The notes under the pieces were generated by a model, which did not search any database, was not told the origin of the DNA, and worked only from the letters and a program-made list of their open reading frames with translations. The position numbers and the translations under genes are program-made. A DNA stretch of 64,000 nucleotides from a virus: IMG/VR virus record IMGVR_UViG_3300036761_001387, positions 1 to 64,000 of that record; one strand, given 5' to 3'. Positions 1-37,788 of this stretch are shown piece after piece (within the stretch, counting starts at the first letter, position 1; each line of letters starts with the position of its first letter).

Positions 1-99
1 CAACGGTTCACGATCTTCTTCGGCCCTCACGCCAACACGGGGACCTATCCGAACCTCGTCGTCAGGATGACGTCAGGGACGACCGGCGACTACTTCGTC
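1..99 (+). repeat. Left copy of a 99-bp (or longer) inverted repeat
   Basis: Bases 1-99 are identical to the reverse complement of 22912-23010, and the match stops at base 100. It begins at the first base of the window, so it may extend further left. The sequence codes for part of a jelly-roll (carbohydrate-binding-module-like) domain, readable through WQRF and GTYPNL. After base 99 the frame runs into an unrelated Cys-rich protein. Both exits from the repeat keep the same reading frame. Confidence 0.95.
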
Positions 100-357
100 C
101 GCAAGGCCCCCGCGCCGCGCAAGAAGGAGTGCGTGGTGTGCCGGATTGCCTACCCATCCGACTGCCCGCATCTGGCCCACTACGACAACTGCACCCCCGC
201 TCTGCGGCGGCTGGTGCGGGCGGCGGGGGAGGCTCCGCATGACTACTTCTGTTCGCTAGCGGAGCACAGGCGCAATGAACGCCGAACCGTTCCCCCGCCA
301 TGCAACTGCTGGAAACGCGCCGTAGCTCGCTTCCGGCGCGAGAGGGAGAAGGGATGA
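67..357 (+). CDS. Small Cys-rich protein with a chimeric N-terminus
   Basis: From about residue 12 onward this is a paralogue of the next gene: both have a CVVC pair, CTPALRRLVRAA, APH and CWKR, and end in FRRERE. The Cys and His spacing suggests a small zinc-binding fold of unknown function. The first 11 residues come from the inverted repeat (jelly-roll coding sequence). Neighbouring genes begin MSDAPK, and KAPAPRKK just after the junction looks like the continuation of such a start, so the true 5' end has probably been replaced or lost. The stop overlaps the next ATG (ATGA). Reading is open at least from base 1, so the start is uncertain. Confidence 0.5.
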   Translation: MTSGTTGDYFVRKAPAPRKKECVVCRIAYPSDCPHLAHYDNCTPALRRLVRAAGEAPHDYFCSLAEHRRNERRTVPPPCNCWKRAVARFRREREKG

Positions 358-560
358 AGAAGCCAAAGGCGTGCGTGGTGTGCGATACCCCGAAGGACGG
401 CATCCATTGTCCGGGCTGCTGCACCCCCGCTTTGCGCCGGCTGGTGCGGGCGGCGGAACGTGCTCCGCACGCCGGACTGTGCCCCTATTGGGATAACAAG
501 CCGTGCCGATGCTGGAAACGAAGCGTCTCCGCCTTCCGGCGCGAGAGGGAGGGTAAGTGA
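354..560 (+). CDS. Small Cys-rich (zinc-knuckle-like) protein, tandem paralogue
   Basis: A 68-residue protein beginning MKKPKACVVC, with six Cys in pairs (CVVC, CPGCC, CRCW) and a basic C-terminal tail. It is a tandem duplicate of the preceding gene. The ATG at 354 overlaps the upstream TGA, the usual coupling in this operon, and so is preferred over an earlier in-frame start at 300. Function unknown; Cys-rich phage proteins of this size often bind zinc and host factors, which here is inference only. Confidence 0.65.
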   Translation: MKKPKACVVCDTPKDGIHCPGCCTPALRRLVRAAERAPHAGLCPYWDNKPCRCWKRSVSAFRREREGK

Positions 561-853
561 GCTACACCTGTGGGCACAAGCCTTACATGAACGTATGGTG
601 CATAGAGTGTCGACCCGATCTCGCTAGCGGAGCGCCCCCGATGAGCGACGCGCCGAAGGCTCCGCTTACGATGTCGATTCTGCGATGCTCAAAACATGAC
701 TTCTGGGCCATCGCCATCGGCAGCTTGCGAATCTCGCCGTCGAAGTGTTGTGGGAGTTGGGATACGACGATCAGAGAGTGGAGCACAACAAAGGCCGACC
801 TGATGCGTGATTTTAACCGTGCCGTTGCGGACATGAGCAAGGAGAAGCAATGA
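557..853 (+). CDS. Hypothetical Cys-rich small protein
   Basis: 98 residues from a GTG that overlaps the previous stop (GTGA). The N-terminal 28 residues contain CGHKPYMNVWCIEC, a plausible zinc site. Residue 29 is an in-frame ATG starting MSDAPKAPLT, the operon's common N-terminal sequence, so translation may also start at 641 (70 residues) or an older gene start may have been fused to an upstream piece. No recognised family. Confidence 0.55.
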   Translation: MSYTCGHKPYMNVWCIECRPDLASGAPPMSDAPKAPLTMSILRCSKHDFWAIAIGSLRISPSKCCGSWDTTIREWSTTKADLMRDFNRAVADMSKEKQ

Positions 854-1137
854 GCGACGCGCCGAAGGTCCTGACGGTGTGTGTGCTGTGCGGACACAAC
901 TACACGGGCGTGCGCTGTGACGATCCGTACAAAGCGCACCCCGCCCCCCCCGCGCCGGTCGCCCCGAAGGACATGCCCCGTGCCACGCCAATAGCGTTAA
1001 ACGATATTAACGTGGCCCCCCCCGCGCCGCCGGAGAACGAGCCTGACCATTACGAACGTCGCACAACCGAGGCGCTCGAACAGATCGCTCGCACGCTGGA
1101 GTTCGTGCTCTGCGAGTTACAGGGGAGGCCCCGATGA
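850..1137 (+). CDS. Hypothetical protein, MSDAPK family
   Basis: 95 residues: the shared MSDAPK start, a CVLCGHNYTGVRC zinc-like site, a PAPPAP linker and a C-terminal amphipathic helix (YERRTTEALEQIARTLEFVL) likely to self-associate. ATG overlaps the upstream TGA. Same architecture (start tag, Cys knuckle, Pro/Ala linker, helix) as the two genes that follow. Function unknown. Confidence 0.6.
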   Translation: MSDAPKVLTVCVLCGHNYTGVRCDDPYKAHPAPPAPVAPKDMPRATPIALNDINVAPPAPPENEPDHYERRTTEALEQIARTLEFVLCELQGRPR

Positions 1138-1844
1138 GCGATCCGAAGGCCCCGCCCGCGCCGGTCTGCCCGTGGGGGCGTCCGAACAAGAACCCCGGAC
1201 AGTTTATGGCGGGGTGCGTGCTACCGCGCTACCACGGCGGCGACCACAAGACCACGAGGGAGAAAGGGTGGCCGCGAGCGAAATGCACGTCGAACCACGG
1301 CGGGCACGGACCGCAACCAGATTGCGAGGTCTGTATGGAAGAGAACGAAGCCCCCGCCCCGCCCGCGCCGAGCGGGAGGATTATCCCGCCCGAGGAGTTC
1401 CCGGGCGTCGTCCACGATGTAGCCGATACGATGGAACTCACGCCAGCACAGCCTGCGGCGTGGGATCGGCTGGCCGAGCACGACAATGCCCTGCGGGCGG
1501 AGGTGGCGGCGGCGACGACCCGCGCCGAGCAGGCCGAGGCCGACCTTGCGGCGGCGCGGGAGTCTCTCGGTGCCGCCAACGACAACGCCGAGAAGTGGCG
1601 CAAGGCAGGGATCAAAGCCGGCGAGGAGATCGCCGCGCTGAAGGCGAAGATTGCCGCGTTTCCGGTCTGCCACCTTGAGTCCTGTGTTACTTGTGCCGCC
1701 ACAGAAGCCCGCGCCGAGAAGGCCGAGGCCGAGGCCTCGCGGCTTAGGGGGGCGCTGGAGAGGATCGTTAAGCACGGTGCTGCCGATCCGTGGCTGACGG
1801 CCATCGCCCGCGAAGCGCTGGACAAAACAAAGGTGCCGAAATGA
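1134..1844 (+). CDS. Zinc-knuckle plus coiled-coil protein, MSDAPK family
   Basis: 236 residues. Residues 1-70 are Cys/His-rich (CPWG, CVLPRYHGGDH, CTSNHGGH, CEVC). After the linker PAPPAP near residue 75, residues 115-170 form a strong coiled coil (RAEVAAATTRAEQAEADLAAARE). A second Cys cluster (CHLESCVTC) at about 185 is followed by another helix. ATG overlaps the upstream stop. The repeat of Cys knuckle, linker and coiled coil across three adjacent genes points to modular duplication. No enzymatic motif. Confidence 0.65.
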   Translation: MSDPKAPPAPVCPWGRPNKNPGQFMAGCVLPRYHGGDHKTTREKGWPRAKCTSNHGGHGPQPDCEVCMEENEAPAPPAPSGRIIPPEEFPGVVHDVADTMELTPAQPAAWDRLAEHDNALRAEVAAATTRAEQAEADLAAARESLGAANDNAEKWRKAGIKAGEEIAALKAKIAAFPVCHLESCVTCAATEARAEKAEAEASRLRGALERIVKHGAADPWLTAIAREALDKTKVPK

Positions 1845-3019
1845 GCGACGCGCCGAAGTGCGCTTGCGGGCACATCAACGGGCAATGTTGGCCGAACTGC
1901 AACCCCTGTATAGATCATCACCCGCAACACGGAAAGAACCCGGTGTGCCGTTCGTGCAACGCCCCCGCCCCGCCCGCGCCGCCGGTCTGCCCAAAATGCG
2001 GGAACTACTGCCTGACGGACAAGGGCGAGTGCGGGCTGCACCCGCCCGCGCCGGACTACGGAGAGATCAAGCAGGAGGACATCGACGGGATGCCGTGGGT
2101 CCACGTCACACCCCCACCCGCGCTGAGCTGGCGGACAAAGCGAATCCGTGCCGACCAGCACAGAGGAACCGGCGAGGCCACAGCGGTCATGGTGAGCCGA
2201 GACGATATGTCGGCAAGGTACGGCGAGGAACGGTTCTGGCCGAAGCCACCGGATGGCATAGCGATTATGACGCCAGAGGAGTACCTACGGCGCGACAAGC
2301 CCGCGCCGAGCGAGAGGATGGGCGAGGAGGAGTTTGAGCAGCAATTTGATTCTGACAAGTTCTACAACGCCTACCACTCCGCGACGCTCTTGATTGACGA
2401 GGCCCGCCGCGCCCGTGACGGCGAGGAGATCGAGGCCCGGCGCGCTAACGGGGCGGAGCTACTCGTGGACGCGAGGGAGGCCGCCCTTGCCGCGAAGGAC
2501 GAGGAGATAGCCGCGCTGAAGAAGCTCCGCCCAATGACAGACACCGATCTCTTGATCCGCGCCGAGAAGGCCGAGGCCGAGCGGGACGCCATGAGTGCGA
2601 TGCTGGGCCGCATCGCTTCGACCGTTGACGACTACTTCCACGCGCCCGCCGAGGAGAACGTGGCGGATGGCGTCGATGCACTCATGGACGACAAGGCCGC
2701 CATAGAGTCCCACAACAAGACGCTGCGGGTGGGGCTGAAGAACGAGCGGAAGAAGAACGATCTCTTGCAGGGCGTGATCGAGTCGCTCAATGCCGACCTC
2801 GCGGCGGCGCTCCAGAAGGGCGAGAACGCCCACGCGCTCTACCGCGAGGCGGACGCCAAGGTGATCGCGCTCAAGGTGCTGCTGCGGAGGGCGCTGAACT
2901 ACGTCGGGATCGGCGTAGAGGCCGTCGAGGACGATCCGAAGACGGGCGAGGGTTTCCAGACGGAGGAGTACGCGCTCGTGGACAAGCTCTGCGACGAGAT
3001 CGAGGAGGCGACGAAGTGA
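1841..3019 (+). CDS. Large Cys-rich coiled-coil protein, MSDAPK family
   Basis: 392 residues from an ATG at 1841 overlapping the upstream TGA; an in-frame start at 1790 lies inside the previous gene and is rejected. The first 80 residues carry about ten Cys (CACGHINGQC, CNPC, CRSC, CPKCGNYC), probably two or three zinc knuckles. Residues 180-340 are largely helical with coiled-coil runs (AALAAKDEEIAALKK, RAEKAEAERDAM). LAAKDEEI resembles segments in the 3411-3824 gene and in the - strand gene at 26609-27454, so these belong to one dispersed family. Function unknown. Confidence 0.65.
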   Translation: MSDAPKCACGHINGQCWPNCNPCIDHHPQHGKNPVCRSCNAPAPPAPPVCPKCGNYCLTDKGECGLHPPAPDYGEIKQEDIDGMPWVHVTPPPALSWRTKRIRADQHRGTGEATAVMVSRDDMSARYGEERFWPKPPDGIAIMTPEEYLRRDKPAPSERMGEEEFEQQFDSDKFYNAYHSATLLIDEARRARDGEEIEARRANGAELLVDAREAALAAKDEEIAALKKLRPMTDTDLLIRAEKAEAERDAMSAMLGRIASTVDDYFHAPAEENVADGVDALMDDKAAIESHNKTLRVGLKNERKKNDLLQGVIESLNADLAAALQKGENAHALYREADAKVIALKVLLRRALNYVGIGVEAVEDDPKTGEGFQTEEYALVDKLCDEIEEATK

Positions 3020-3183
3020 GACAGATTGAACGCGAAGAAGAAGACATCGAACGCCGCTACGCCGAGGGGCTGTTGACCGCCAAGGAGTATCAGGAAAAGA
3101 TGCGCGATCTTTACCGTGACTACCGCGCCCAAGCGGAGGAAGCCGCCGAACAGGCGTACCGCGATGAATTGGAACGCTGGTAA
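3016..3183 (+). CDS. Small charged helical protein
   Basis: 55 residues from a GTG overlapping the previous stop, ending TAA at 3181. The sequence is almost entirely helical and charged (IEREEEDIERRYAEG, YRDYRAQAEEAAEQ). It fills the interval between its neighbours exactly. Function unknown. Confidence 0.6.
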   Translation: MRQIEREEEDIERRYAEGLLTAKEYQEKMRDLYRDYRAQAEEAAEQAYRDELERW

Positions 3184-3195
3184 GGAGGCGATACA

Positions 3196-3414
3196 GTGAG
3201 CGAGAACACCCGGACGCTGATCTCTGACAACGCCGCCGCGTGGCGCGACGGCACGCTCTCGATGCCGTGCGCGAAGTGCAAGGAGAAGGACGCCGAGGTC
3301 GCCGCGCTGAAGGCGAAGGCCAAGGTCGCCGACGAGTATTACACCGGAGAGGCGACCCGCTCCATGGCGGAGGAGATCGTCAAACTGCGGGAGGCGCTGG
3401 AGGAGAAGCCGTGA
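3196..3414 (+). CDS. Small coiled-coil protein
   Basis: 72 residues from GTG preceded by AAGGAGG at good spacing, a strong Shine-Dalgarno compared with the coupled neighbours. It has a short CAKC site near residue 27 and a helix with AEVAALKAKAKVADEYY. The stop overlaps the next GTG. Its composition matches the coiled-coil parts of the larger genes upstream, so it may be a shortened paralogue. Confidence 0.6.
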   Translation: MSENTRTLISDNAAAWRDGTLSMPCAKCKEKDAEVAALKAKAKVADEYYTGEATRSMAEEIVKLREALEEKP

Positions 3415-3824
3415 GCCTGACGCGAGCGGAGTTTGAGGCACAGTTCCGTCGGATGAACGGCCCAGCTGCCGAGGAGGCGCTTCTCGCCCACGACGCCGCA
3501 CAGCGGGCCGAGGTCGCCCGGCTGCGGGGGATCATCCGTCACCTTCTCCCTCTGGCTGCGTTCTGCGCCCCGCCGGACGGGATGGAGTGGGTCAGAATCG
3601 CCCGCGAGGCGCTGGAGGGCAAGACGGTCGTTTCCGTTCAAGAAGTCCTCGCCGCGAAGGACGCGGAGTTGACGGCTCTGAACGCTGCGCTCCACGGCTG
3701 CGCGATGAAGCTGACGAAGGCCGAGGCCGAGGTCGCCGCGCTGCGGGGGGCGCTGGAGAAGATCGGCAAGAGCGTCATCTGTGACCACGGCAAGACAGCC
3801 CGAGCTGCGCTGGAGAAGCCGTGA
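3411..3824 (+). CDS. Coiled-coil protein
   Basis: 137 residues beginning MSLTRAEFEAQF at a GTG overlapping the previous stop; earlier in-frame starts lie inside that gene. Two helical segments contain LAAKDAELTALNAAL and TKAEAEVAALRGALEKI. The tail GKTARAALEKP resembles the end of the 1134-1844 product. Likely oligomeric; function unknown. Confidence 0.6.
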   Translation: MSLTRAEFEAQFRRMNGPAAEEALLAHDAAQRAEVARLRGIIRHLLPLAAFCAPPDGMEWVRIAREALEGKTVVSVQEVLAAKDAELTALNAALHGCAMKLTKAEAEVAALRGALEKIGKSVICDHGKTARAALEKP

Positions 3825-4279
3825 GTCCGCGCCCGATCTACGAGAACGCACAGAGCCTCAAGGACGAGCTGGAAATCGCCACTGCCGTTTGCAACCACCT
3901 CGGCTGCACGGGCCTCAGGAAGCTCAACCCAATCTCCTACGGCATCGACTTCGCCATCCTCGTCGCGGGTCCGGAAGAGGATGGCGTCTGGTGCCTTCTC
4001 GAGGCGAAAGCGCGCAATCGTTTCTACCATCAGTGGATCATCTCTGCCCTGAAGACGGAACGTGCGGCGGGCTTTGGCGCCTCCGGGCTCGCGGTCTATT
4101 TCGCTTGGGGTGCCCGGTCTGGCATCGACTGGGAGATCGATCTCTGGCAGTGGAACCCCAAAGTTCGCACCTTCATTCTCGCCGGCAGGGATGACCGGGG
4201 CGACGAGGACGACAAGGAACCGTGCCTGCTCGTTCCCCGGAGCCTCTGTGATTCCTTTTCGTACAGGAGAACGTCTTGA
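3821..4279 (+). CDS. Putative PD-(D/E)XK-fold nuclease
   Basis: 152 residues from GTG (GTGA overlap). The segment YGIDFAILVAG (Asp43) followed by WCLLEAKAR (Glu61, Lys63) fits the D...ExK active site of the PD-(D/E)XK nuclease fold, with flanking hydrophobic strands. A DNA-end or recombination role would fit an early gene. The motif is short and the family is diverse, so the nuclease call is inference from this one site. Confidence 0.45.
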   Translation: MSPRPIYENAQSLKDELEIATAVCNHLGCTGLRKLNPISYGIDFAILVAGPEEDGVWCLLEAKARNRFYHQWIISALKTERAAGFGASGLAVYFAWGARSGIDWEIDLWQWNPKVRTFILAGRDDRGDEDDKEPCLLVPRSLCDSFSYRRTS

Positions 4280-4578
4280 GCGAACTTCCCGCCAACCCCG
4301 AGGCCGATCATCTCGGCTGGCTCATCGCCCGGATGTCCGCTGCTGCCCTCGGCCACATGAAGCCAGACGAGCCCTACCCCGGCAAGCCGCTCGCCCCCGT
4401 CGAGGAGATCCTGAGGCTCCGGTTCGCGGCCATGACGCTCGCCGAGGCCGTGGCGAAGCGGATCTACGGGGCGACCTTCACGCCGACCGACGTGGACACG
4501 ATCTTCACCGAGGCCCTGAACGAGGCGGCCGAGAAGCTGCCGATTGCCTACGCGAAACCGAAGGAGGACGGAGGCTGA
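4276..4578 (+). CDS. Hypothetical small protein
   Basis: 100 residues from TTG overlapping the previous stop. Predicted all-helical: HLGWLIARMSAAALGHM, then a basic helix with EEILRLRFAAMTLAEAVAKRIYG. No recognised family or catalytic motif. Confidence 0.55.
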   Translation: MSELPANPEADHLGWLIARMSAAALGHMKPDEPYPGKPLAPVEEILRLRFAAMTLAEAVAKRIYGATFTPTDVDTIFTEALNEAAEKLPIAYAKPKEDGG

Positions 4579-4760
4579 TGTGGACTTGGAGCGTGCTCTT
4601 CGGGATCCTGAATTTTCTCGCAGTCGTCTTTGCTGTGGTGGGCGTAATCGCCATTGGGGCGCTACTGCACATGGGCTGGCAGATCGGCGGCGCCCTGATG
4701 ACGAAGTTCCGGGACTGGCGGGATTGTCATCGCACTTCCTCGTCGCGCTGGCGCTGGTGA
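4578..4760 (+). CDS. Small single-span membrane protein
   Basis: 60 residues. After a short N-terminus, residues 6-40 are hydrophobic (ILNFLAVVFAVVGVIAIGAL, then LLHMGW), one long or two short membrane helices, followed by a basic Arg-rich tail. ATG overlaps the previous TGA. It overlaps the next membrane ORF out of frame. Could be an early-membrane or lysis-regulation protein; no family is recognised. Confidence 0.5.
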   Translation: MWTWSVLFGILNFLAVVFAVVGVIAIGALLHMGWQIGGALMTKFRDWRDCHRTSSSRWRW

Positions 4761-4861
4761 TTCTTCTGGGCGTTTGCGCTGACTTCTGCGTTCGTCACTG
4801 GACCGACATCGTCAACGAGGCCGGGCGGGACGGGGCTTCCGCCGAGAGGACTGGGTTATGA
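4724..4861 (+). CDS. Very small membrane protein overlapping its neighbour
   Basis: 45 residues from TTG: MSSHFLVALALVILLGVC is a membrane helix, with a short charged tail ending at a TGA that overlaps the next ATG. It lies 37 bases inside the upstream membrane gene in another frame. Two overlapping small membrane genes resemble nested spanin or holin arrangements, but there is no lipobox, so that is speculative. Confidence 0.4.
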   Translation: MSSHFLVALALVILLGVCADFCVRHWTDIVNEAGRDGASAERTGL

Positions 4862-5103
4862 AGTTTGAAATCGTCAAGAGCCGCGCGAAGAAGCTGTACA
4901 CACCGGGGGCCACGAAGGGGAAGCTCCAGTACCGCGTTCGGGTGAGAGGCCGGAACGGTCGAATCCTGCTGTCCTCGGAGACTTACAACGCGCGCATCGC
5001 CGCGAGGCGGATGATCGCGCACGTCTCAGCACAGGCACTGTGGACGCGGGTCGTTGATATCGACGAGACCGGCGACAAGCCGAAGAAGAAAGGGAAGCGC
5101 TGA
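4858..5103 (+). CDS. DUF1508-like small protein
   Basis: 81 residues. The segment YRVRVRGRNGRILLSSE followed by Y-N-A-R-I-A-A-R and an ending isoleucine helix resembles the DUF1508 (YegP-type) repeat, whose pattern is a beta strand, NG-hhh-SE-Y, then a helix. One repeat is present, where YegP itself has two. Basic tail. The molecular role of the family is unknown. Confidence 0.5.
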   Translation: MKFEIVKSRAKKLYTPGATKGKLQYRVRVRGRNGRILLSSETYNARIAARRMIAHVSAQALWTRVVDIDETGDKPKKKGKR

Positions 5104-5171
5104 TGTACGAGAAGGGCATGGTCACCATCGCGCCGGCCGACGGGCCGACGCCCGAGAAGGAGAAGAGATGA
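5103..5171 (+). CDS. Tiny coupled ORF, 22 residues
   Basis: Starts at an ATG overlapping the upstream stop and stops in the ATGA of the next gene, so it is a perfect coupled link. Sequence MYEKGMVTIAPADGPTPEKE. ADGPTPEKE resembles ADGPTAEKK near the start of the 5529-5882 product. Could be a real microprotein or a translational coupling leader. Confidence 0.35.
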   Translation: MYEKGMVTIAPADGPTPEKEKR

Positions 5172-5527
5172 CAGACGAACAGACGGAAGCCGTCCCCGAG
5201 AAAATCGCCATCTCCCGCGACCAGCAGCCCGTCCTGCGCTTTCGCATCGAGGAGACGATCCCGACGATCGAGCTTGTCGGCCAGCCTTCGGGCCATATCC
5301 TGAAGCTCTGGATGAACAAGGCAGCCGTGCTGGCGATGGCGCACGGCCTGATCGACGTCGCGGCCACGATGCCACCCACTCCGGACGGGATCGCCATCCT
5401 CCAGTTCGGCGGCATGAAGATGCCCCGGAACGCCGAGATCAAGGTCGAGAACGCGGCAGACTCTCCGACCCAGATCAGCCCCCTCGTCGGGCCGGGCGGC
5501 GACCAGATCGTCAAGGTCGTGAAGTAG
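5168..5527 (+). CDS. Hypothetical protein
   Basis: 119 residues from an ATG (5168) overlapping the tiny ORF upstream; the long in-frame extension to 5054 is rejected because it overlaps two genes. Predicted beta-rich core (PVLRFRIEETIPTIELVG, GIAILQFGGMKM). No family recognised. Confidence 0.55.
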   Translation: MTDEQTEAVPEKIAISRDQQPVLRFRIEETIPTIELVGQPSGHILKLWMNKAAVLAMAHGLIDVAATMPPTPDGIAILQFGGMKMPRNAEIKVENAADSPTQISPLVGPGGDQIVKVVK

Positions 5528-5528
5528 C

Positions 5529-5882
5529 GTGGGCCGGCCGCGGCAACGGTCCATCGGCGTGGAGTACTTCCTCCCGGCCGATGGGCCGACGGCGGAGAAG
5601 AAGATCGCCCGCTCCGTCATTGCTCAGGCCGGCATCGACGCCACGTCCCGCGACGAGGACATCCGGCTCGACGCGCTTCGCTTCTTTCTCGGGGAAAGCC
5701 AGCCCTGCCGGATCGTCCGGGAGCACTGGTTTATGACCGCGCAGCTCCAGATCCCGGACATCGAGACGCTCAGGGATGGCCTCGCGAATGCCGTGAAGGA
5801 TCCAACCGTATCGCGCTGCAAGGCGATCACCGAGGCGTGGGTCGCATGGAGACGCGAGAAGGAACGGAGCGAGGAGAAGTGA
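5529..5882 (+). CDS. Hypothetical helical protein
   Basis: 117 residues from GTG two bases after the previous stop. The N-terminus is basic (MGRPRQRS) and the rest helical; it ends in a Lys/Glu-rich helix. The stop overlaps the next GTG. No recognised family. Confidence 0.55.
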   Translation: MGRPRQRSIGVEYFLPADGPTAEKKIARSVIAQAGIDATSRDEDIRLDALRFFLGESQPCRIVREHWFMTAQLQIPDIETLRDGLANAVKDPTVSRCKAITEAWVAWRREKERSEEK

Positions 5883-6109
5883 CGTTGCTCTGTCTGCGTT
5901 GCAAGAAGGCCGTGGAGCGTCTCGACTCTGGCACTCTGGCGGAGATCTTCTCGCCCGGCGCGTACTACGTCGCCGGGGAGCGCGTCGTCTGGTGCCCGAA
6001 CTGCCGGATCGTCCTCTGCCAGATGGTCGAGACCCGCATCCGCGACGCCGGGGAGGTCAGCCGGCGCTACGTCAAGATGAAGGTGCGGCCCAAGGGCGAG
6101 GGGATCTAA
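5879..6109 (+). CDS. Zinc-ribbon protein
   Basis: 76 residues from GTG (GTGA overlap). Two Cys pairs, CLRC near residue 5 and CPNC near residue 49, make a classical zinc ribbon, ending in a basic tail. Last gene of the left + strand operon. Its TAA shares the CTAA tetranucleotide with the TAG of the convergent transglycosylase gene. Confidence 0.6.
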   Translation: MTLLCLRCKKAVERLDSGTLAEIFSPGAYYVAGERVVWCPNCRIVLCQMVETRIRDAGEVSRRYVKMKVRPKGEGI

Positions 6110-6585
6110 GCCCTCTGCTCGCGGAGCGCGTCGGCCCGCTCCATGATCGGGTCAACGTACTTCCCGAAGTTGTTCGGCGTCGGGCTTCCGGCGTTGTAGG
6201 CCGAGAGGGCGTCCCGTATGTTCGCGTATCGGCTGATCTTGAGGGCGAGGTGCTGCGCCCCGAGGTCGAGAGCGAGCGCCGGGTTCGCAGCGAGGTCCGC
6301 GAGGAACGCGCCCTTGAAGCCCCGCTCCCGGGCCACCGCTCCCATGATCTGGAGCAGCCCCCACGAGCACATCTGGAGGATCCGCTCCGTCTCGAGCGAG
6401 CATGGCGCGACGGGCACGACGGCCGAGACGGACGGCCAGAGCCAGCGGTAGCCGGGCTCGTAGCGCACGGCCGACGGGTTCCCGCCGCTCTCCTGAATGA
6501 CCTGCGAGACGAGGAGGAACTCGTCGATCCCGTAGCGGTTGGCCGCGTCGGTCACGAGGGCGGTGATGCCGAAGGGCAGCGTCAT
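6106..6585 (-). CDS. Lytic transglycosylase (SLT family)
   Basis: 159 residues. The soluble-lytic-transglycosylase motifs occur in order: QVIQESGGNPSAV with the catalytic Glu (about residue 32), SWGLLQIMG (about 74) and ALSAYNAG (about 126). Enzymes of this family cleave the glycan strand of peptidoglycan by forming a 1,6-anhydro bond. There is no signal peptide. Its start overlaps the end of the giant virion protein by four bases, so it is probably a virion-associated wall-piercing enzyme, although it could also serve as endolysin since no other is seen. Confidence 0.85.
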   Translation of the reverse strand: MTLPFGITALVTDAANRYGIDEFLLVSQVIQESGGNPSAVRYEPGYRWLWPSVSAVVPVAPCSLETERILQMCSWGLLQIMGAVARERGFKGAFLADLAANPALALDLGAQHLALKISRYANIRDALSAYNAGSPTPNNFGKYVDPIMERADALREQRA

Positions 6586-15506: not shown

Positions 15507-15507
15507 G

Positions 15508-16968
15508 CTACTTCACCGACACCCACGTTCCCTTCGTCGCGTCGAATCGCATCGGGGCCATCGCTCCCGTCTTCTTGTCGCGCATCATCGCTACGTCGCC
15601 GTTCTTCGGCGGCTTGCCGGCCGCAAAGTCTTCTTTCGTATAGTTCGCCGTGGGCGGCGGCGCCGCGGGGCCTTCCGGCTGCGGCTTCGGCGCGAACGGT
15701 GCCGGTTTGCCCGCCTGAGTGACGTGAAAGTTGAAATCGCCAACGATCCGGTCCCTGATCTTGGTACGCATCTCGTCCTGCTCTTCGGGCGTCGCCGTCG
15801 AGCCGAGGCCGGATTCCCACTTCTGGTAGGCCCGCTCGGTTTCCGCGACGATCGCGGGGGTGACCTTCTCGTCGAAGCCGGCCTTGGGCTGCGTCTTTTT
15901 CCCGCCGCCCCCCAAGCGCGTGAGCGCCATCTTCCCGGTCGTCGGGTCTTTCATAATGACCGACACGTTGCCGTCGTTGTCTACGATCGGCTGGCCGACC
16001 GCCTGTGGGGTCGTCTCCTTCGCCGGCTGCTTCGGTCTGAACGGCACGTCGGCCGTTTCCGGCACTCCGGCGAACCCGGTATCGGGCATCGGGCCCTGCG
16101 CCGTGTACTCCTGCGTGGCCTTGATGACTTCCTGCCGCTGGGTGACCGGGTTGAAGAAGGTGGCCTCGCCGTTCTCGTTGAGCTGCTCCTTCCCGGGCAC
16201 CATCGCGGCAGCCTTGGCCTTGGCGATCCTCTCCGCCGAGTCCGCGTGGATTCTGGCCGCCTTTTCGCGGTCGCTCTCCGGCCTAAGACCGAGATCGATC
16301 TGCTGGCCGCCACGAGTCATCTGCACCCGGTGCGTCCCGTCCGACCTGACGACGTCGAACGTCTTCCCCATCGGTTCGGTCGACCTCCGGTTGTCTTCGT
16401 ACTCGGCCTGACGGGTCAATTCGTTCCGTTCGGCCAGAAGGTCGCGCATCTTCATCGATTGCTGATACCGCGAGCTGGAATTACTGAAAAGACCGGCGAT
16501 CCCTGACACCAAGCTGCCAGCGGAGCGCTTTTCCTCCGCGATCTCCGCATCGATGCGACTCACGGCGTCCCACGCCGGGCTTCTCGGCCTGTCCGGGGCG
16601 GCAGCCGCGTCTCCGTAGTCGTTCGGACGCTCTGGACTCGAGGCGGGGGGCTTTTCTCCCCTCACACCGGCCGGATCCGGCTCAGGGGCGTTCCCGGCCG
16701 AGGCGATCTTGTCGGGAACCGCTTGGGCAGCGCGCTCCGGCTCGTACCCGGGCTCATACGGGCTCACGTTACCCGAAAAGCCGCGCCGATCCGACGATCC
16801 AGTGCCCTCTCTTGCGAGTTGCTTCTCCAAAGCGACCTTGTAGGGCGATGGCTGCGGGTCCGCGACATCATCCGGCTCGAAAAGCTGGTACGGAGAGCCC
16901 GGATAGTCCTCGTCCATGATCCCGCTGAAGGGACCCTGCATCCTGAAGGAGTTCCCGATCATGGTCAT
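15508..16968 (-). CDS. Virion structural protein, probably internal
   Basis: 486 residues. Low-complexity, Pro/Ala/Lys-rich, with a central coiled coil (EKAARIHADSAERIAKAKAA around 245) and a C-terminal region with HVTQAGKPAPFAPKP. Placed immediately upstream of the giant protein gene and co-directional, it may be its partner in the internal core or ejection apparatus. No sequence family recognised. Confidence 0.55.
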   Translation of the reverse strand: MTMIGNSFRMQGPFSGIMDEDYPGSPYQLFEPDDVADPQPSPYKVALEKQLAREGTGSSDRRGFSGNVSPYEPGYEPERAAQAVPDKIASAGNAPEPDPAGVRGEKPPASSPERPNDYGDAAAAPDRPRSPAWDAVSRIDAEIAEEKRSAGSLVSGIAGLFSNSSSRYQQSMKMRDLLAERNELTRQAEYEDNRRSTEPMGKTFDVVRSDGTHRVQMTRGGQQIDLGLRPESDREKAARIHADSAERIAKAKAAAMVPGKEQLNENGEATFFNPVTQRQEVIKATQEYTAQGPMPDTGFAGVPETADVPFRPKQPAKETTPQAVGQPIVDNDGNVSVIMKDPTTGKMALTRLGGGGKKTQPKAGFDEKVTPAIVAETERAYQKWESGLGSTATPEEQDEMRTKIRDRIVGDFNFHVTQAGKPAPFAPKPQPEGPAAPPPTANYTKEDFAAGKPPKNGDVAMMRDKKTGAMAPMRFDATKGTWVSVK

Positions 16969-16977
16969 AGTCGCCCC

Positions 16978-18138
16978 CTATCTCGGTTTCACGGTCGTCG
17001 ACGCGCCTTCCGTGTGATCCTCGCGACCCTGCTTGAGAATCGCGTCCTGAGCGGCCTGCTGCGCCGCCTGCTGCTGCGCGGCGAGCTGGGCGAGCGTCAT
17101 CAGGCCCTGCGCGCCCGTCGTCTTGCGCCCGAAGATGTTCTGGCCGAGATTCGTGAGCCCGCTGGCCGCCGTCGCGGCCTTCCCGATCTGCTGCGCGTTC
17201 TGTCCTGCCTGAGAAGTGATGCCGAACTGCTGCCGGTTCGCCGCGATGCCAGCGACGTCTCCGGTTCCCCTGAGCCCCGCCTCTTTCTGGCGCTCCCGCT
17301 CGTTGAAAATGTCGATCGTGTTTTTCCGCGCGGCGTCCGTCATGGCCCGCGAGGCGTCACGGGCGAGCCCGACGCCTGAAACGGCGCTCGCGAGCGGGTT
17401 ATTCGTCGACGCGGCGAGCCTCGAGGCCCTTTCGCGCTCGACGCTGAAGGGCGTAGCGGCCGTTTCGAGCGCGATCCCGGTCAGCGCCTGCTTCGTGGCA
17501 GCGTCGAAGCCGCCGTTTTCGATCATGTCCTGATATTTCTTCCTCAGGAGCGACTCGTCAGCGCCAGAAGTCGTGCCGTAGGTGCCCGTTTGCTTGTAGA
17601 GCGCCTGCTCCTGCGCGTTCGGACCGGAAGCGAGTTCCGCGAGGGTCTTCCCGGCCTTCGTGTCGTAGCCGCTTTCCGGGTTCGTGATGAATCCGCGCAG
17701 GACATCGAGGAGCCCGGGCGCGCCACCGGCCGCCGGAGCGGGCCCGGGCGCGGGGGCTGGCACCGGACCGCCAGCCGGAGCTGGCGGGGGAGTCTGTGAG
17801 ATGGCCGGAGCGGGCCCGGGCGCGCTCCCGCCGGGCACAGTCGCCGTGGTCCCGCCGACAGGGGGCCCCAGCCTCATGCTGACGCCCTTCGCGGGCGGGT
17901 TCGGAGGTGCGGTGCCGGGGCCGGGGGGCGGGGCGGGAGGGGGCGCCGCAGCCTGTCTCTGGGCTACTACCTCTGGCGGCCACTGATCCTGCGACGGCTC
18001 GGGACCGGGCCCCATCCACGCCCACTGACCGGACGTCTGCTTCTGCCAGCCCTGAGCGGAATTGGTCGCAGGGGTCGGGGAGGGACGCGGCTCCGTCTCT
18101 TCTGGATCGAGCTGATATCGGCTGACGTTGTACATCAC
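16978..18138 (-). CDS. Pro-rich virion protein
   Basis: 386 residues starting MMYNVSRYQLDPEE. Residues 60-150 are almost pure Pro/Ala/Gly (for example PAPAPGPAPAAGG), then a helical C-terminal half rich in Ala and Gln (AQLAAQQQAAQQAAQDAI). Likely a flexible linker or internal core protein of the virion, judged from position within the structural run. No conserved family seen. Confidence 0.55.
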   Translation of the reverse strand: MMYNVSRYQLDPEETEPRPSPTPATNSAQGWQKQTSGQWAWMGPGPEPSQDQWPPEVVAQRQAAAPPPAPPPGPGTAPPNPPAKGVSMRLGPPVGGTTATVPGGSAPGPAPAISQTPPPAPAGGPVPAPAPGPAPAAGGAPGLLDVLRGFITNPESGYDTKAGKTLAELASGPNAQEQALYKQTGTYGTTSGADESLLRKKYQDMIENGGFDAATKQALTGIALETAATPFSVERERASRLAASTNNPLASAVSGVGLARDASRAMTDAARKNTIDIFNERERQKEAGLRGTGDVAGIAANRQQFGITSQAGQNAQQIGKAATAASGLTNLGQNIFGRKTTGAQGLMTLAQLAAQQQAAQQAAQDAILKQGREDHTEGASTTVKPR

Positions 18139-18147
18139 ATCCTTCCT

Positions 18148-19323
18148 TTAGAAGAGGTACATCCAGTTCGCGTTGGTTGTACCGCCTCCACCACCAACGC
18201 CAACGCCGAGACGTCCGCCAACGCCGCCGCCGCCCGGACGCTTTATCCTCGGCTGCCTCGTGATCGGATCGACCTCGGTCTGGGTTTCGTCGGGCGGAGG
18301 CGTCGCCGCGCCGTCTGTCGGGCTGGGGGGACGGAAGAGCGACACCGCTGGCCGCCCCGCGCCGGGACCCGGATGCGCCGGGTCACCCGGGCCACCGCCG
18401 GCCGGAGGATTCGGAGGAACGTCCGGCGGCGCCGGAGGCGGCGTCGTGACGGGAGGGGTCGTCAAGGGCTTGTTCCCTGCCCCGTACAGAACGTCGTCGA
18501 AGATGTTCCCGAACTTGCTGGCGCCCGCCTGATGACCCTGCAGCGCGAGATCGAACGGACTCCCCGGCTGGATCTGGCCGGTGTCGCCGAGGTACGTCTT
18601 CGTGTTCTTCGACTGGCCCTTCGTGTAGCTCGTGCCGCCGAACAGGCCCTTGGCCGCGTCGAGCAGCGCCTTCATGGTGTCGCTGGAGGAGCCCTTGGAC
18701 GAGCCGCCGCCGCTGCTCCCGCCGCCGCCGCTCCCGGATGGCGTGACTGCTTTCGGGGCCGCCTTCAAAGGTTGTCCGGTGACCGGGTTGGTCACAACCT
18801 TCCCGTCCCTCGTGACCTGCCCCTTCTCGTTCACGCCCATCGTCCCCTCGTCGACCGGGCCCTGCGGCTCGTTCGCGTTTACCGTCCACTCGCCGGTCTT
18901 CGAATCGAGAGAATGGACCGTGCCCCACGCATCGACGTACTTGTATCCACCATCGGCGCCGTAGCCGTAGTATTCCTTCCCGGTGGGCGCGTCGTCTCTC
19001 CAGTTCCCCGTGTTCTCGTCGAGGTAGTGCTTCCCGTTCGCGTCCTCGTAGAAATAGAGGCCGTTTGGGTCATAACCATATCCGCCCCCGCCCGTGTCGT
19101 CCCCAAACACAAGCGGGTCCCCATTCTCGTCTACGTCGGGCAATCCTCCGGGAGTGTAGTCTCCCGGATCCCAGCCGATCGGCTCGTCGCCCGGCTGCCA
19201 TGGCCCGAAAATATCCCCCGGATCGCCGCCGCCGCCGGGATCTGGGTCCGTGAAATCAATCGGCCAGTCGCCGCCGCCGCCGGGATCCTCGTCGAGCCAG
19301 TCGCCTTCTTCGTTAAAGCCCAT
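18148..19323 (-). CDS. Gly/Asp-rich virion protein
   Basis: 391 residues; the ATG at 19323 (MGFNEEGDW) is chosen over one 16 codons upstream that falls deeper inside the previous gene. The N-terminal 110 residues are Gly, Asp and Pro (repeated DPGGGGDW/DPGGGGDP). Residues 105-175 form a WW-like repetitive stretch with YYGYGADGGYKYVDAWGT and HSLDSKTGEW. A Ser/Gly linker and a polyproline region follow, and the C-terminus ends in polyglycine. Probably an extended structural or fibre-like component. Confidence 0.55.
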   Translation of the reverse strand: MGFNEEGDWLDEDPGGGGDWPIDFTDPDPGGGGDPGDIFGPWQPGDEPIGWDPGDYTPGGLPDVDENGDPLVFGDDTGGGGYGYDPNGLYFYEDANGKHYLDENTGNWRDDAPTGKEYYGYGADGGYKYVDAWGTVHSLDSKTGEWTVNANEPQGPVDEGTMGVNEKGQVTRDGKVVTNPVTGQPLKAAPKAVTPSGSGGGGSSGGGSSKGSSSDTMKALLDAAKGLFGGTSYTKGQSKNTKTYLGDTGQIQPGSPFDLALQGHQAGASKFGNIFDDVLYGAGNKPLTTPPVTTPPPAPPDVPPNPPAGGGPGDPAHPGPGAGRPAVSLFRPPSPTDGAATPPPDETQTEVDPITRQPRIKRPGGGGVGGRLGVGVGGGGGTTNANWMYLF

Positions 19324-19807
19324 TTGCCACCTCCGCCCGCCAGTCCTCAAAGGTCTGGATGGCACCCGCACCGTGAAACAGTTCGTGGACTTCTCTGATC
19401 ACGGCACGCTGGTGCTCCCAGCCGCCGACGAGGAAGGCGATCATCCCCAGTACGCGCTCAAGCGCTTCCCTGTGGACGAACGCGAACATCTTCGTTTCTA
19501 CCTTATCTTCCGCGAGCCAGTCGTTGCTCGCGTCCCAGTACGCCAGAGCCGAAACGATCAGCGGCGTCAGGCTGTTGCTGTGCCGCCTGAAGAATGGGTT
19601 CCCCACGATCTCGACGAAGACCATCCCGAGCAGCTTCGCGACCGCCGCCGACCGCCGCCCGAGCGTGCCCGTGATCTCGGGCCTGTCCATGTCGACGATG
19701 TCGTCGGCGAGGTGCGAGGCATTGAAGAGCGAACTGATCAGAGCGGAGGCATCCCCGTCACCGCACCCCCACTTGGCGATCAGCTCGTGCTCGGGCGGTC
19801 TGGTCAT
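19313..19807 (-). CDS. Conserved-looking phage protein, head or tail associated
   Basis: 164 residues, globular and mainly helical (SALISSLFNASHLADDIVDM, LLGMVFVEIVGNPFFRRH). The domain looks compact and enzyme-sized but has no motif I can name. It overlaps its downstream neighbour by 11 bases and its upstream neighbour by one, and sits among structural genes. Confidence 0.5.
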   Translation of the reverse strand: MTRPPEHELIAKWGCGDGDASALISSLFNASHLADDIVDMDRPEITGTLGRRSAAVAKLLGMVFVEIVGNPFFRRHSNSLTPLIVSALAYWDASNDWLAEDKVETKMFAFVHREALERVLGMIAFLVGGWEHQRAVIREVHELFHGAGAIQTFEDWRAEVANGL

Positions 19808-20343
19808 CAGGGCTTGAAGGATCCGCCCTTCTTGAAGGGGCGGAATGACCGGCCGCCGCGAGAGAGGGGCTTGTGCTCCTCGTCGCTGTTCCGGAGGGAA
19901 TGGCCCTCCTCCCAGCTCAGACCGAGGGCCGGCTTCCGGCTCTCCTCGATCGCTTCGACTTCCTTGGACTCGCCAGCCTCGTGCGCGGGCGTCTCCTCTT
20001 CCTCGCTCTCGACGGGGCCGTACTTCGCGGTCTCGACCGTATCGGGGGGCTTCTCGCTCGAGTCACCGAACATGATCGCGTTCGGCCCCTCCTCGTTGTC
20101 CGATGTGTACGGCGAGGATTCCTGCTCGGCATTCTGCGGGGTGTCCTCGACGGCCGGCACGGTCGCGAATTTCCCGTGTTCCTCGGCGAGCGCATGGTGA
20201 TGCTCGGCCAGCTTCTTGTGGTGCTCCGCCAGCGCGGCATGATCTCCGTCGCCCTCGTCGTTTGGAGCATCGCCGACCGGGCCGCCCTTGTCCTTCAGGG
20301 ACTGCTTCAGGTACTCGCGGCGCTTCTTCAGGATCGGGAACAT
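19807..20343 (-). CDS. Acidic protein with His-rich heptad repeat
   Basis: 178 residues from an ATG at 20343 preceded by AAGGAGA; longer in-frame reading overlaps the upstream gene and is rejected. The segment LAEHHKKLAEHHHALAEEH (about 38-56) is three copies of a LAEHH-type helix repeat. The middle is strongly acidic and the C-terminus basic (RGGRSFRPFKKGG). Possibly a scaffold- or assembly-associated protein; this is inference. Confidence 0.5.
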   Translation of the reverse strand: MFPILKKRREYLKQSLKDKGGPVGDAPNDEGDGDHAALAEHHKKLAEHHHALAEEHGKFATVPAVEDTPQNAEQESSPYTSDNEEGPNAIMFGDSSEKPPDTVETAKYGPVESEEEETPAHEAGESKEVEAIEESRKPALGLSWEEGHSLRNSDEEHKPLSRGGRSFRPFKKGGSFKP

Positions 20344-20353
20344 CTCGTTCTCC

Positions 20354-21412
20354 TTATGAGGTGCCAGCGGCACCGGGCGTTTGGTTGATTGCGGCCGTGA
20401 TGGGCTTCTTCCGCGGATCGTACAGGTCAGCGCCCTGTTGCTGGGCCGTCGAACGCATCGTGCTGGGCCCACGCGCCCCGGTCGCCCATGCTGGCGGCGT
20501 GGGCGCCGAAGCGCCGGGCGCGCTGCCCTGCAGCGTTCCGGGATTCGTCGGCTTCGACACCGTGACGGCTGGATTCGTGGCCTGCACGGGGTTCGTCGGA
20601 GCCGTGTAACCCGGACCCGGCGTATAGGACATCGCCCCGCTGCCAGCCGGGGCCGTGGGCTGATTCGTCGCGCCGGCCACGGCCGTGTTCTTCAGCGTCT
20701 GGACGACGTTCGCGTTGTTCTGGATCGCCTCGGCCGGAGCGGCCGTGGCGGGCGGCACCTCCTGATCGACGATGGGCGTGGTCGAAGCCGAGGCATCCTC
20801 TTGTGTCCCGTACCCCAACGAGCCACCGGCCGTGGATTGCGCGCCAGCATCGCCGGCAGCGTTCGGCCCAGAGACGGCCGCGGGCTTGCCGCCGGTCGCC
20901 GTCGTCTGGTACTGCTGCATCTTCTGGGTCGCATAGTTCGGGTCGCTGGCGACGGACTGCTTAAGCTGATCCATCGTGCCGGAACCGATATTTGCGAAGC
21001 TGGTCTTCGCGGCATCGGCCCCGTTTCCCTTCCATGTCTGCCCCGGAGCCGAGGCCGGCATCGCGCCCCGCAAACCTTCATCGTGCTTGGCTTGAATCAT
21101 GTCCCATGCGGTTAGCCCCATGCTGTACCCGCTCTCGATGTAGTCGGCGTAGTATTTCGCCTTCTCCGCGGGCGTGCTCCCGGGGAGGTGGTCAATGGCG
21201 CTCATGGACGGCGAGGATGACGTCATCGCCAGAAACTTCAGGGGGTCGTTCCCGGCGCGCGCCATGATCTCCTGCGCGATAAGGGCGTCATAGCCGGCGC
21301 CCTGAACGGCGGCCCGCTGTTTACCCCAGCCGGTAGACGAAGCGCTGTTTGCGGCCGTCTGTGGACGGCCCTCCTGAGTCAGCTTTCGCCTCCGGTTGAT
21401 GACGTTGTACAT
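20354..21412 (-). CDS. Virion protein, paralogue of the 62698-63156 product
   Basis: 352 residues. Residues about 40-120 share DPLKFLAMTSS, HLPGSTPAEKAKYY and GLTAWDMIQAKHDEGLRG with the 152-residue + strand protein at 62698-63156, so the N-terminal domain is a clear paralogue. The remainder is low-complexity Ala/Thr/Pro-rich sequence. Preceded by a short spacer. Probably an internal or connector-associated virion protein. Confidence 0.6.
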   Translation of the reverse strand: MYNVINRRRKLTQEGRPQTAANSASSTGWGKQRAAVQGAGYDALIAQEIMARAGNDPLKFLAMTSSSPSMSAIDHLPGSTPAEKAKYYADYIESGYSMGLTAWDMIQAKHDEGLRGAMPASAPGQTWKGNGADAAKTSFANIGSGTMDQLKQSVASDPNYATQKMQQYQTTATGGKPAAVSGPNAAGDAGAQSTAGGSLGYGTQEDASASTTPIVDQEVPPATAAPAEAIQNNANVVQTLKNTAVAGATNQPTAPAGSGAMSYTPGPGYTAPTNPVQATNPAVTVSKPTNPGTLQGSAPGASAPTPPAWATGARGPSTMRSTAQQQGADLYDPRKKPITAAINQTPGAAGTS

Positions 21413-21420
21413 GGGGCCTC

Positions 21421-22074
21421 CTACCAGCCGCGGCCCGGACCTTTCCTCCTGCCGGGCGGCTGATTCGCCATCTGACGAAAACGCGAAGGGCCCTGCGGAG
21501 GAGGCGTGCCGGGAGCGGGAGCGCCCGGAGCGCCACCGGCCGTGGCCTGCGGCAGAACGCCGCCGGTACGAGGAGCAGCCTGCCCACCCGGAGCCGGTCG
21601 CCCGGCGGTCACGGCGCCGCCGCTCATCGCGCTCGGCCTGACGCCCTTGCCGGCCATCCCCGGCGTGTTCGCGCCGTAGAAGGTGTTGTCAACGGGCGGC
21701 TTGGGCGCATACGCGCTGGGGTCCGTGTGCCCATACGTTCCGCGGTTCGGATCGAACCCAAGATTCGTCGTGTCGATGCCGCCGGACGGCGAGTCGGACT
21801 GGTAGTCGGACTGGTAGATGGTTCCCGTCTGCGGCGGCGGCAGCACCATCTTCGCTCCGGGCTTGTTGTCGGGGGGGTCGATGATTTCCGTCTGCGGCGG
21901 CGGCACCATCTTCGCTCCGGGCTGGTTGTCGGGGGGCGTTGCCGGGAACGTAGACCATGTGTCTCGGTTCATCGGGTCGTACTTGGTCGTTCCCGGAACG
22001 TATCCGTCCGGGGCGTCGTTGGCGACGTAGGGCTTCCCCGTTTTCGGATCAATGGGCTGTGGAAGTGCTGGCAT
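21421..22074 (-). CDS. Pro-rich repetitive virion protein
   Basis: 217 residues. Tandem repeat near residues 45-75: PPDNQPGAKMVPPPQTE then PPDNKPGAKMVLPPPQTG, an exact-style duplication visible in the DNA as well. Opens MPALPQPIDPKTGKPYVAND. C-terminus basic. Disordered linker or fibre-like component; function unknown. Confidence 0.5.
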   Translation of the reverse strand: MPALPQPIDPKTGKPYVANDAPDGYVPGTTKYDPMNRDTWSTFPATPPDNQPGAKMVPPPQTEIIDPPDNKPGAKMVLPPPQTGTIYQSDYQSDSPSGGIDTTNLGFDPNRGTYGHTDPSAYAPKPPVDNTFYGANTPGMAGKGVRPSAMSGGAVTAGRPAPGGQAAPRTGGVLPQATAGGAPGAPAPGTPPPQGPSRFRQMANQPPGRRKGPGRGW

Positions 22075-22087
22075 GGTGTTCCTCCTA

Positions 22088-22423
22088 TTAGTCGTTGACT
22101 ACTTCCCAAGTGAAGGTGCTGTTGTCGAAGACGCTCGTGCTGCGAACGATGAAGCTGAACCCGGGGACGCGCTCGCTCGCGAGAGCCTCCAGCCGCGTGC
22201 CCGGGATCCCGATGGGCTTGAGGCACTCGAGGTGGATCACCGAGTCGGACAGCACTTCCGCGCTCTTCACGGTACAGACGCCGTTGATCAGCGTGCCGAC
22301 GCCCGTGGTTCTCTCGTCGATCAGCTCGTTGATCTTGTCGCGGATCTCCTGAAGGATCTGGTACAGGGCCGGATCCGTGTACCGCTCCGCGAGCTTCACG
22401 AGGGCGACGCGCTTCGTGCTCAT
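22088..22423 (-). CDS. Small structural protein
   Basis: 111 residues from ATG overlapping the upstream TGA (TGATG). Begins MSTKRVALVKLAERYTDPAL, a helical N-terminus, then a beta-rich C-terminal half (VCTVKSAEVL, GFSFIVRSTSVFDN). A compact protein of the size of tail or head-tail adaptor subunits, but no family is recognised. Confidence 0.5.
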   Translation of the reverse strand: MSTKRVALVKLAERYTDPALYQILQEIRDKINELIDERTTGVGTLINGVCTVKSAEVLSDSVIHLECLKPIGIPGTRLEALASERVPGFSFIVRSTSVFDNSTFTWEVVND

Positions 22424-23121
22424 CAGTTCGTCTTCCCGCGCCGCGGCCCCTTGGCCGAGGGCTGCAGCATCGCGAAGATCCGGCGGATGACGAACCACGC
22501 GTCCTTCGCCGAAGTCGAAATCCGGAGCCCGAGCGACAGTTCGTGCTCGTTCGAGCGCGTCTCGATGTCGTACCGCGGGACGGACTGGAGGCTCGGCATC
22601 TGGTGGCCCGAGTTCACGGCCACGGTCGTCCCGTCGGGTCGCACCCAGTAAATGCTCATCACGCCGGCGCCGCGCGCTCGCACGATGGCCGCCCCGAAGT
22701 CCGCAAATGCCACGTCGAGGCCGAACGGGGCCGTCTCGTACGTCGGAGTGATCGGGCCGTCGAAGTCGTACGTCTGGCCGGAGATCGGCGTGGCGAGGAT
22801 CCCGGCGGCGTTGAGCTGCATGGGCCGCGCCGATGAGGTCGTGAGGCACCAGCCTCCGTCGTAGGAAGGATTCGTGGCCGAGCCGAGGCCCGTCTGCGCC
22901 TGCGTCCCGAAGACGAAGTAGTCGCCGGTCGTCCCTGACGTCATCCTGACGACGAGGTTCGGATAGGTCCCCGTGTTGGCGTGAGGGCCGAAGAAGATCG
23001 TGAACCGTTGCCAGTTCGCCGTGACGGTCACGACCTGAGTCTGGATGCCCGTCCCCAGATTCGAGGACGTGAAGGTGACTGTCCCCGTGCCCGTCGACTT
23101 CCGGATCCAGATGGCGGTCAT
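22423..23121 (-). CDS. Jelly-roll (CBM-like) virion protein, N-terminally short
   Basis: 232 residues from an ATG at 23121 overlapping the upstream stop. It opens within a jelly-roll domain (AIWIRKSTGTGTV, then VTANWQRFTIFFG). The same fold in the 63160 gene has about 80 residues in front (its equivalent reads SIWMKATAPANVIV, TTSWQQFNVSFG), so the first half of the domain seems absent here. The C-terminal 130 residues are a separate beta-rich domain. It contains the right copy of the inverted repeat (22912-23010). Confidence 0.55.
   Translation of the reverse strand: MTAIWIRKSTGTGTVTFTSSNLGTGIQTQVVTVTANWQRFTIFFGPHANTGTYPNLVVRMTSGTTGDYFVFGTQAQTGLGSATNPSYDGGWCLTTSSARPMQLNAAGILATPISGQTYDFDGPITPTYETAPFGLDVAFADFGAAIVRARGAGVMSIYWVRPDGTTVAVNSGHQMPSLQSVPRYDIETRSNEHELSLGLRISTSAKDAWFVIRRIFAMLQPSAKGPRRGKTN
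22912..23010 (-). repeat. Right copy of the 99-bp inverted repeat
   Basis: Exact reverse complement of bases 1-99, lying inside the jelly-roll gene. Beyond this copy (below 22912) the gene continues into FGTQAQTG, whereas at the left copy the same coding frame continues into RKAPAPRKK. Two different exits from one shared stretch mark a recombination or assembly branch point. Confidence 0.95.
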
Positions 23122-23303
23122 TCTTTCTCCCTCTGTTCTTCTTCGCGGCACTCTATGAGGGTACGGACCTCTTCACGCAGTTCGAGTAGGAACTCATCAT
23201 ATTCGGCGAGCGTCATCCGTACCGGGTCCGTTGCCTTCGCAATGGCGACGCGGACCTCTTGAATGGCGGTGGTTTCGGGAGGAGCCTTGCGGGCGCGGGT
23301 CAT
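23118..23303 (-). CDS. Small charged helical protein
   Basis: 61 residues, MTRARKAPPETTAIQEVRVA then a long acidic helix (EYDEFLLELREEVRTLIE). Both ends are coupled by ATGA overlaps with neighbours. Longer in-frame reading upstream to 23732 runs opposite the lipoprotein frame and is rejected. Function unknown. Confidence 0.5.
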   Translation of the reverse strand: MTRARKAPPETTAIQEVRVAIAKATDPVRMTLAEYDEFLLELREEVRTLIECREEEQREKE

Positions 23304-27454: not shown

Positions 27455-27606
27455 GCCTCCTCCGCGTGCTTGGCGCAGTAGAACGGGCCGACGAGCCCCG
27501 GCCACGCCGGGCCGTACATCGGGCGCTTGCACTTCCGGCAGCGGTACTTCTTCGTGGCGCCCTTCGTGGCGTCGCGAACCTTCCGCTTGTAGTCGGCCTT
27601 CTTCAC
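27451..27606 (-). CDS. Small zinc-binding protein
   Basis: 51 residues from GTG (overlap GTGA): CRKC near residue 24 and a lone CAKH near the end form a four-ligand C2CH site; basic throughout. Fits between coupled neighbours. No family. Confidence 0.5.
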   Translation of the reverse strand: MKKADYKRKVRDATKGATKKYRCRKCKRPMYGPAWPGLVGPFYCAKHAEEA

Positions 27607-28324: not shown

Positions 28325-28909
28325 TCAATCTCCGTAGGCAATGCGGGCCTGCTGGATGGCGCAGCCTGCGATGAAGAGGGAGAGCGCGGAGCTTCGCATC
28401 TGGCAGATGTCGTAGACGTAGCCGCCGTTCTCGTTGAGATAGACCGTGGCAACTTGCTCCGCTTCGTTCTCGGTGAGCCAGTGCTGCCGGAGGTAGTCGT
28501 AGGCCGCGACCTGAACGTCGTACCGCCAGTGCCGGGCCCCGGTCTTGATGTCGAGCAGGATGCTCTTCCCGCCAACGTGGCCGAAGCGATCGTAGGTCCC
28601 GGCCACGCCAAGGACCGGGTCGCAGACCTTCACCTCGATCTCCCCGAGCTTGGGGCTGAATCCCGTCTCCTGCCGGAAGCGTTCCCAGCCGACGAGGTAG
28701 CCCATGATGGCGGGGTCCACCGTCTCGCGATCGAGGGTGCGCTTGTCGAAGAACTCGGTCGCCATGTGGACTGCCGTGCCCCTGAGCATGGCGATCGGAT
28801 CGGAGAAGTTGAAGGGAGAGATCACGTTCAGCACGGACGACACGCCCATCAGCTCGCGCCCGTCGAGCCAGTACCGGTGATCCGGATCGCGGATCAGGTT
28901 CCTGTTCAC
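28325..28909 (-). CDS. RecB/Cas4-like PD-(D/E)XK exonuclease
   Basis: 194 residues from GTG (GTGA overlap with the RecT gene). RecB-family motifs in order: GTAVHMA with His48, GTYDRFG with Asp107, LLDIKTG with Asp120 and Lys122, and DVQVAAYDYL with Gln133 and Tyr137. Such exonucleases resect DNA ends and hand single strands to an annealing protein. Coupling to RecT supports this two-component recombination role. Confidence 0.8.
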   Translation of the reverse strand: MNRNLIRDPDHRYWLDGRELMGVSSVLNVISPFNFSDPIAMLRGTAVHMATEFFDKRTLDRETVDPAIMGYLVGWERFRQETGFSPKLGEIEVKVCDPVLGVAGTYDRFGHVGGKSILLDIKTGARHWRYDVQVAAYDYLRQHWLTENEAEQVATVYLNENGGYVYDICQMRSSALSLFIAGCAIQQARIAYGD

Positions 28910-37725: not shown

Positions 37726-37788
37726 ATTGTCCTCGCAAAGTCTATGCAGAAGAGCACGTTACGGTGGGTGAAGCAGAACCAACCGGTT

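Follow-up and report, generated by a model that had tools for sequence, protein, structure and literature searches.

Invertible segments of phage genomes, such as the G segment of phage Mu and the C segment of phage P1, are flipped by the site-specific invertases Gin and Cin. The locus described here resembles them in that a segment of phage DNA lies between inverted repeats. It differs from them in that: (i) searches of the record turned up neither a serine nor a tyrosine recombinase family; (ii) the repeat consists of coding sequence of a tail gene; and (iii) the flip would split early from late genes instead of swapping tail-fibre ends. Inverted duplication of an originally single-copy sequence at both ends of a segment has been described as the signature of inversion through staggered breaks (PMC3355041), and where contigs break at repeats, assemblers reportedly produce ends that share a sequence as long as the largest k-mer (PMC10914622).

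The window analyzed in this work comprises the first 64,000 bases of a virus record (IMGVR_UViG_3300036761_001387) that is classed as linear and has a full length of 67,102 bp. A sequence-only reading of the window had supposed that position 64,000 joins position 1; this fails, since the record runs on to 67,102 bp. The same reading had noticed that positions 1-99 form an inverted repeat with 22912-23010. We confirmed reverse-complement identity over exactly 99 bases, with divergence at base 100. The 99-bp repeat is only half of the feature, however, and it ends on one side because the contig begins there: a single 202-bp stretch, designated W, holds both contig ends. The final 117 bp of the record (66986-67102) are the reverse complement of 22997-23113, 14 bp are common to both record ends (67089-67102 and 1-14), and the two end pieces, merged on these 14 bp, rebuild exactly W, whose reverse complement is 22912-23113. 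Outside the two pieces just described, inverted repeats of at least 18 bp are absent from the record, and among further repeats, whatever their type, the longest measures 25 bp; chance is therefore ruled out as the source of the W match.

Both contig ends thus lie inside 0.3% of the record. When the ends of 17 whole records (the present one plus 16 further virus records, related or similar) were compared with their own interiors in inverted orientation, only this record gave a match. Although classed as linear, it closes on itself as a circle of about 67.1 kb (67,088 bp as deposited, 66.9 kb with one W), and the contig is in effect a whole genome map. Terminal redundancy as a full explanation is ruled out by the direct overlap of the ends, which is only 14 bp. 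A more distant relative, IMGVR_UViG_3300005541_000006, has a 90-bp direct terminal repeat despite its linear classification.

W has two neighbors on each side. On its left are P1 (the contig end, within the tail gene) and P2 (the early genes from 23114 up, on the minus strand); on its right are S1 (the Cys-rich gene at position 100) and S2 (the tail-gene end from 22911 down, on the minus strand). In the record, P2-W-S2 is internal, while P1-W and W-S1 are the contig ends. The features are listed in Table 1.

Table 1. Features of the record around the shared stretch W and in the early and late gene blocks.
Feature	Position	Strand	Basis
Contig start, the last 99 bases of W, coding QRFTIFFG...GDYFV of the tail protein	1..99	+	Exact match
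Segment A, inverted in the record relative to the G013 order	100..22911	.	Gene order in G013
S1, Cys-rich early gene without its own start codon here; paralog of the next gene	100..357	+	
Paralog of S1 with its own start (MKKPKACVVC...), yardstick for the native S1 start	354..560	+	
Lytic transglycosylase (SLT), last late gene in segment A	6106..6585	-	Pfam SLT, E 3.7e-13
Giant 2974-aa virion-type protein, in a position corresponding to that of the 3098-aa protein of G013	6582..15506	-	
Distal late genes; homologs downstream of the G013 tail gene (43704-44294, 42409-42924)	16978..20062	-	
S2, coding the tail protein's C-terminal 162 residues	22423..22911	-	G013 homology continues past the W/S2 edge
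W, 202-bp shared stretch	22912..23113	-	Second copy split: 66986-67102 + 1-99, 14-bp overlap
P2, early gene (23118-23270), ribosome-binding site and ATGACCGC, the putative natural S1 start	23114..23270	-	
RecT-like single-strand annealing protein, early block	28906..29808	-	PHROG 561, E 5.8e-54
Large terminase that opens the late block; LAGLIDADG, probable intein	42453..45188	+	
Portal protein	56013..58439	+	
Protein at the major capsid position, 71-75% identical in two relatives	59936..61198	+	Role inferred from position, no family match

To characterize the tail gene and the gene order we used a relative, G013 (IMGVR_UViG_3300044712_001805, 59,915 bp), which was found through its capsid-position protein (71% identical). 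The sequence P1-W-S2 translates as one open frame of 978 aa, in which the edges of W fall at residues about 749 and 816, mid-way in an apparent single domain. Residues 2-976 are collinear with a single plus-strand frame of G013 (36753-39845, E 4e-108), and the similarity crosses both edges of W, including W/S2. The deposited order interrupts this gene at residue 816, where it becomes fused to the Cys-rich gene, and puts the last 162 residues of its product behind an early start codon. A paralogous segment of residues 683-833 was revealed in a 390-aa protein of the same record (63160-64332). The alignment of the two crosses the P1/W edge and W itself with a score of 192 against a shuffle maximum of 102 (n = 200); its last few residues past W are too weak to count alone. 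The segment common to these two structural proteins is perhaps a duplicated sugar-binding-type jelly-roll domain. A search with the W/S2 protein, which may not have covered near-identical records, found no near relatives.

In G013 one strand carries, in this order, the genes for terminase, portal, capsid and tail, next the homologs of 19316-20062 and 16981-18147, and lastly the giant protein of 3,098 aa; minus-strand genes are located at the far end only. The gene order of a related phage, which the sequence-only reading had named as a check, is thus unlike the deposited one, where the distal part lies on the other strand, with the giant protein and the transglycosylase left behind early genes. 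Once 100-22911 is re-inverted, all late genes of the record form one run in which portal, capsid, tail and distal structural genes have the same order as in G013. Judged from this synteny, segment 100-22911 is inverted relative to the normal order. The proposal that the flip would sort early and late genes was borne out insofar as the late genes come into one run, as in G013, while gene direction alone is no proof. The deposited order, closed into a circle, also consists of only two gene blocks, which converge near 6.1 kb. As both orders give two blocks when closed, strand was rejected as proof of the flip, which is shown instead by gene function and by the order in the relative.

No similarity could be detected between the giant protein of the record and that of G013, and because of this their comparison is one of size and position. 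As a query, the giant protein of the record found no relative; it contains a RadC/JAB-type domain at residues 1069-1178. In G013 the transglycosylase homolog (27087-27692) lies upstream of the portal gene and does not follow the giant protein, which means that its location has changed between the relatives.

On the early side, S1 and the adjoining gene are tandem paralogs (56% identical). Joined directly, P2 and S1 read ...AGGGAGAAAGA ATG ACC GCC CGC AAG GCC..., i.e. MTARKAPAPRKKECVVC..., which provides a ribosome-binding site, an ATG and a frame matching the adjoining paralog (in frame if one ambiguous C is kept), and the paralog begins a few residues ahead of the same CVVC motif. Because the direct join gives a start and a frame like those of the tandem paralog, P2-S1 without W would be the ancestral state. 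It should be noted that W set between P2 and S1 also keeps the frame; the chance of such agreement in length and frame is about 1 in 9. The two tandem Cys-rich genes (100-560, plus strand) are without relatives in the virus collection. Searches by the S1 family, by the P2-S1 DNA pattern and by the end of P2, outside which near-identical records possibly lie, revealed no other genome with the early junction.

Taken together, these data make it likely that the deposited order results from a wrong join at W and is not that of the normal genome. W has its place within the tail gene, where it follows the contig end and leads into the minus strand from 22911 down, but the assembled data also contained W beside the early genes, joined to P2 on one side and to S1 on the other. 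From this branch point the assembler may have followed the path from the early genes (P2) through W to the end of the tail gene (S2), which would be the wrong exit. P1 and S1 would then be left over as contig ends, each reaching part-way into W, and segment 100-22911 would be written backwards. According to this scheme, P2 and S1 would be natural neighbors, any genuine W copy in the early gene would be a secondary insertion, and the swap would have been made by the assembler rather than by the phage.

A wrong join is favored because both contig ends, which match exactly within 22912-23113, merge inside W, as expected for a contig that breaks at a repeat, and because the other exit restores the P1-W-S2 frame and a late gene order that agree with G013. 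Misassembly at repeats as described with COBRA (PMC10914622) has the same marks, namely ends in a shared stretch, an ambiguous order beyond it and a relative that shows the other exit. Thus, of the two origins that the sequence-only reading had offered, a join made at a shared stretch is the better one, given that both contig ends lie inside W and the tail gene is cut. Its suggestion that the stretch reflects a k-mer length of 99 agrees with the left end (99 bp, a common k) but not with the right end (117 bp) or the whole stretch (202 bp).

These lengths are also an argument against a wrong join. The shared 99 and 117 of 202 bp are not one k-mer length, a simple k = 99 rule fits one end, and in this the locus seems to depart from the described misassemblies, for which a single maximum k is expected at both ends. 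In addition, 202 bp is a distance that read pairs usually bridge, and they may thus have supported the path P2-W-S2. Finally, the joins P2|W and W|S1 have only 1 bp in common with the sequence whose place they take, which makes it probable that there were molecules in which W was linked to P2 and to S1. Unlike a misassembly by the assembler alone, the shared stretch must here have required real or chimeric molecules carrying the two extra joins; possible sources are a W copy in the early gene, a staggered-break inversion and chimeric DNA.

A real inverted molecule in some form is to be considered, and we regard it as possible, if somewhat unlikely. Its main variant is an inversion in the phage lineage, or in part of the population, through staggered breaks: the tail gene would be nicked at two sites 202 bp from each other, the P2/S1 boundary would be broken, and the ends would be rejoined without homology. 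Such an event would leave W inverted at both ends of the segment, which is the deposited structure when it is drawn as a circle of 67,088 bp, and the relative with its one uninterrupted tail gene fits the single-copy origin of the repeat that this signature implies. The joins with 1 bp of microhomology agree with it, as does the exact adjacency that P2 and S1 seem to have in the uninverted form; the flipped genes would still lie in two convergent blocks, so transcription would not be opposed. Inversions 2h and 2q of Drosophila (PMC3355041) are similar in having a single-copy sequence inverted at both ends and no homology at the joins, whereas the phage copies are known from the contig alone, whose ends lie within one of them. 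It is harder to reconcile with this route that the tail protein would be cut at residue 816, its last 162 residues standing behind an early start codon, and that the giant virion protein would be placed behind early genes, since a 67-kb contig needs an abundant and thus viable phage; moreover, G013 keeps the normal order. For these reasons we consider a staggered-break inversion unlikely.

It is quite improbable that P2-W and W-S1 are chimeras that arose during DNA amplification or library preparation and replaced the native joins. In favor of this origin, chimeric products of phi29 amplification (MDA) are mostly of the inverted type, 406 of 475 in one study; against it, 337 of these 406 join segments less than 10 kb apart, most of them with an intervening deletion (PMC1855051). 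Here both joins would have to fall precisely on the P2/S1 boundary at a distance of 23 kb, a coincidence not expected of independent chimeras.

The other origin offered by the sequence-only reading, two isomers of the genome, would demand two real inverted copies of W between which homologous recombination, e.g. by the RecT-like annealing protein that the phage encodes, swaps the order. Two W copies were indeed assembled in inverted orientation, and since W between P2 and S1 would stay in frame, the tail gene could remain intact in the partner isomer. Two working forms are nevertheless unsupported: one of them breaks the tail gene, W starts and stops mid-domain and so is no natural unit, G013 has an uninterrupted tail gene and lacks a repeat at its ends, and the search for an invertase or integrase gave none. 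We hold this exchange to be very improbable. We likewise doubt strongly that a population exists in which the early Cys-rich gene contains an in-frame, inverted 202-bp W and the 23 kb flip between two forms; if this were true, the early and late operons would have their distal ends exchanged in one of the two forms. Alternative usable 3' ends of the tail gene, which characterize invertible segments, are not seen, the other end being a Cys-rich early gene. Site-specific inversion of the Gin/Cin/Hin type is ruled out, as no such recombinase was found in the record: a six-frame search with PF00239 and PF00589 gave no match (controls were positive in 10 and 14 of 14 genomes), and invertase/integrase families are absent among its 81 ORFs.

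With a wrong join at W as the preferred explanation, the result is mainly a correction and a quality flag for a database record and not a new biological switch. Public virus contigs serve studies of gene order and taxonomy, and in this one a third of the genes run backwards and the tail gene is split. Such records would be caught by a screen that compares contig ends with the inverted interior of the same contig. If the inverted form is real, it would represent an unusual exchange of early and late operon ends in a phage.

Phage GenBank records gave no match to the junction DNA or to the portal, and no relative of the capsid-position protein was found in bacterial genomes. In the 911-aa terminase, LAGLIDADG/homing-endonuclease matches at residues 280-341 lie ahead of the terminase match at 450-571, and the gene probably contains an intein.
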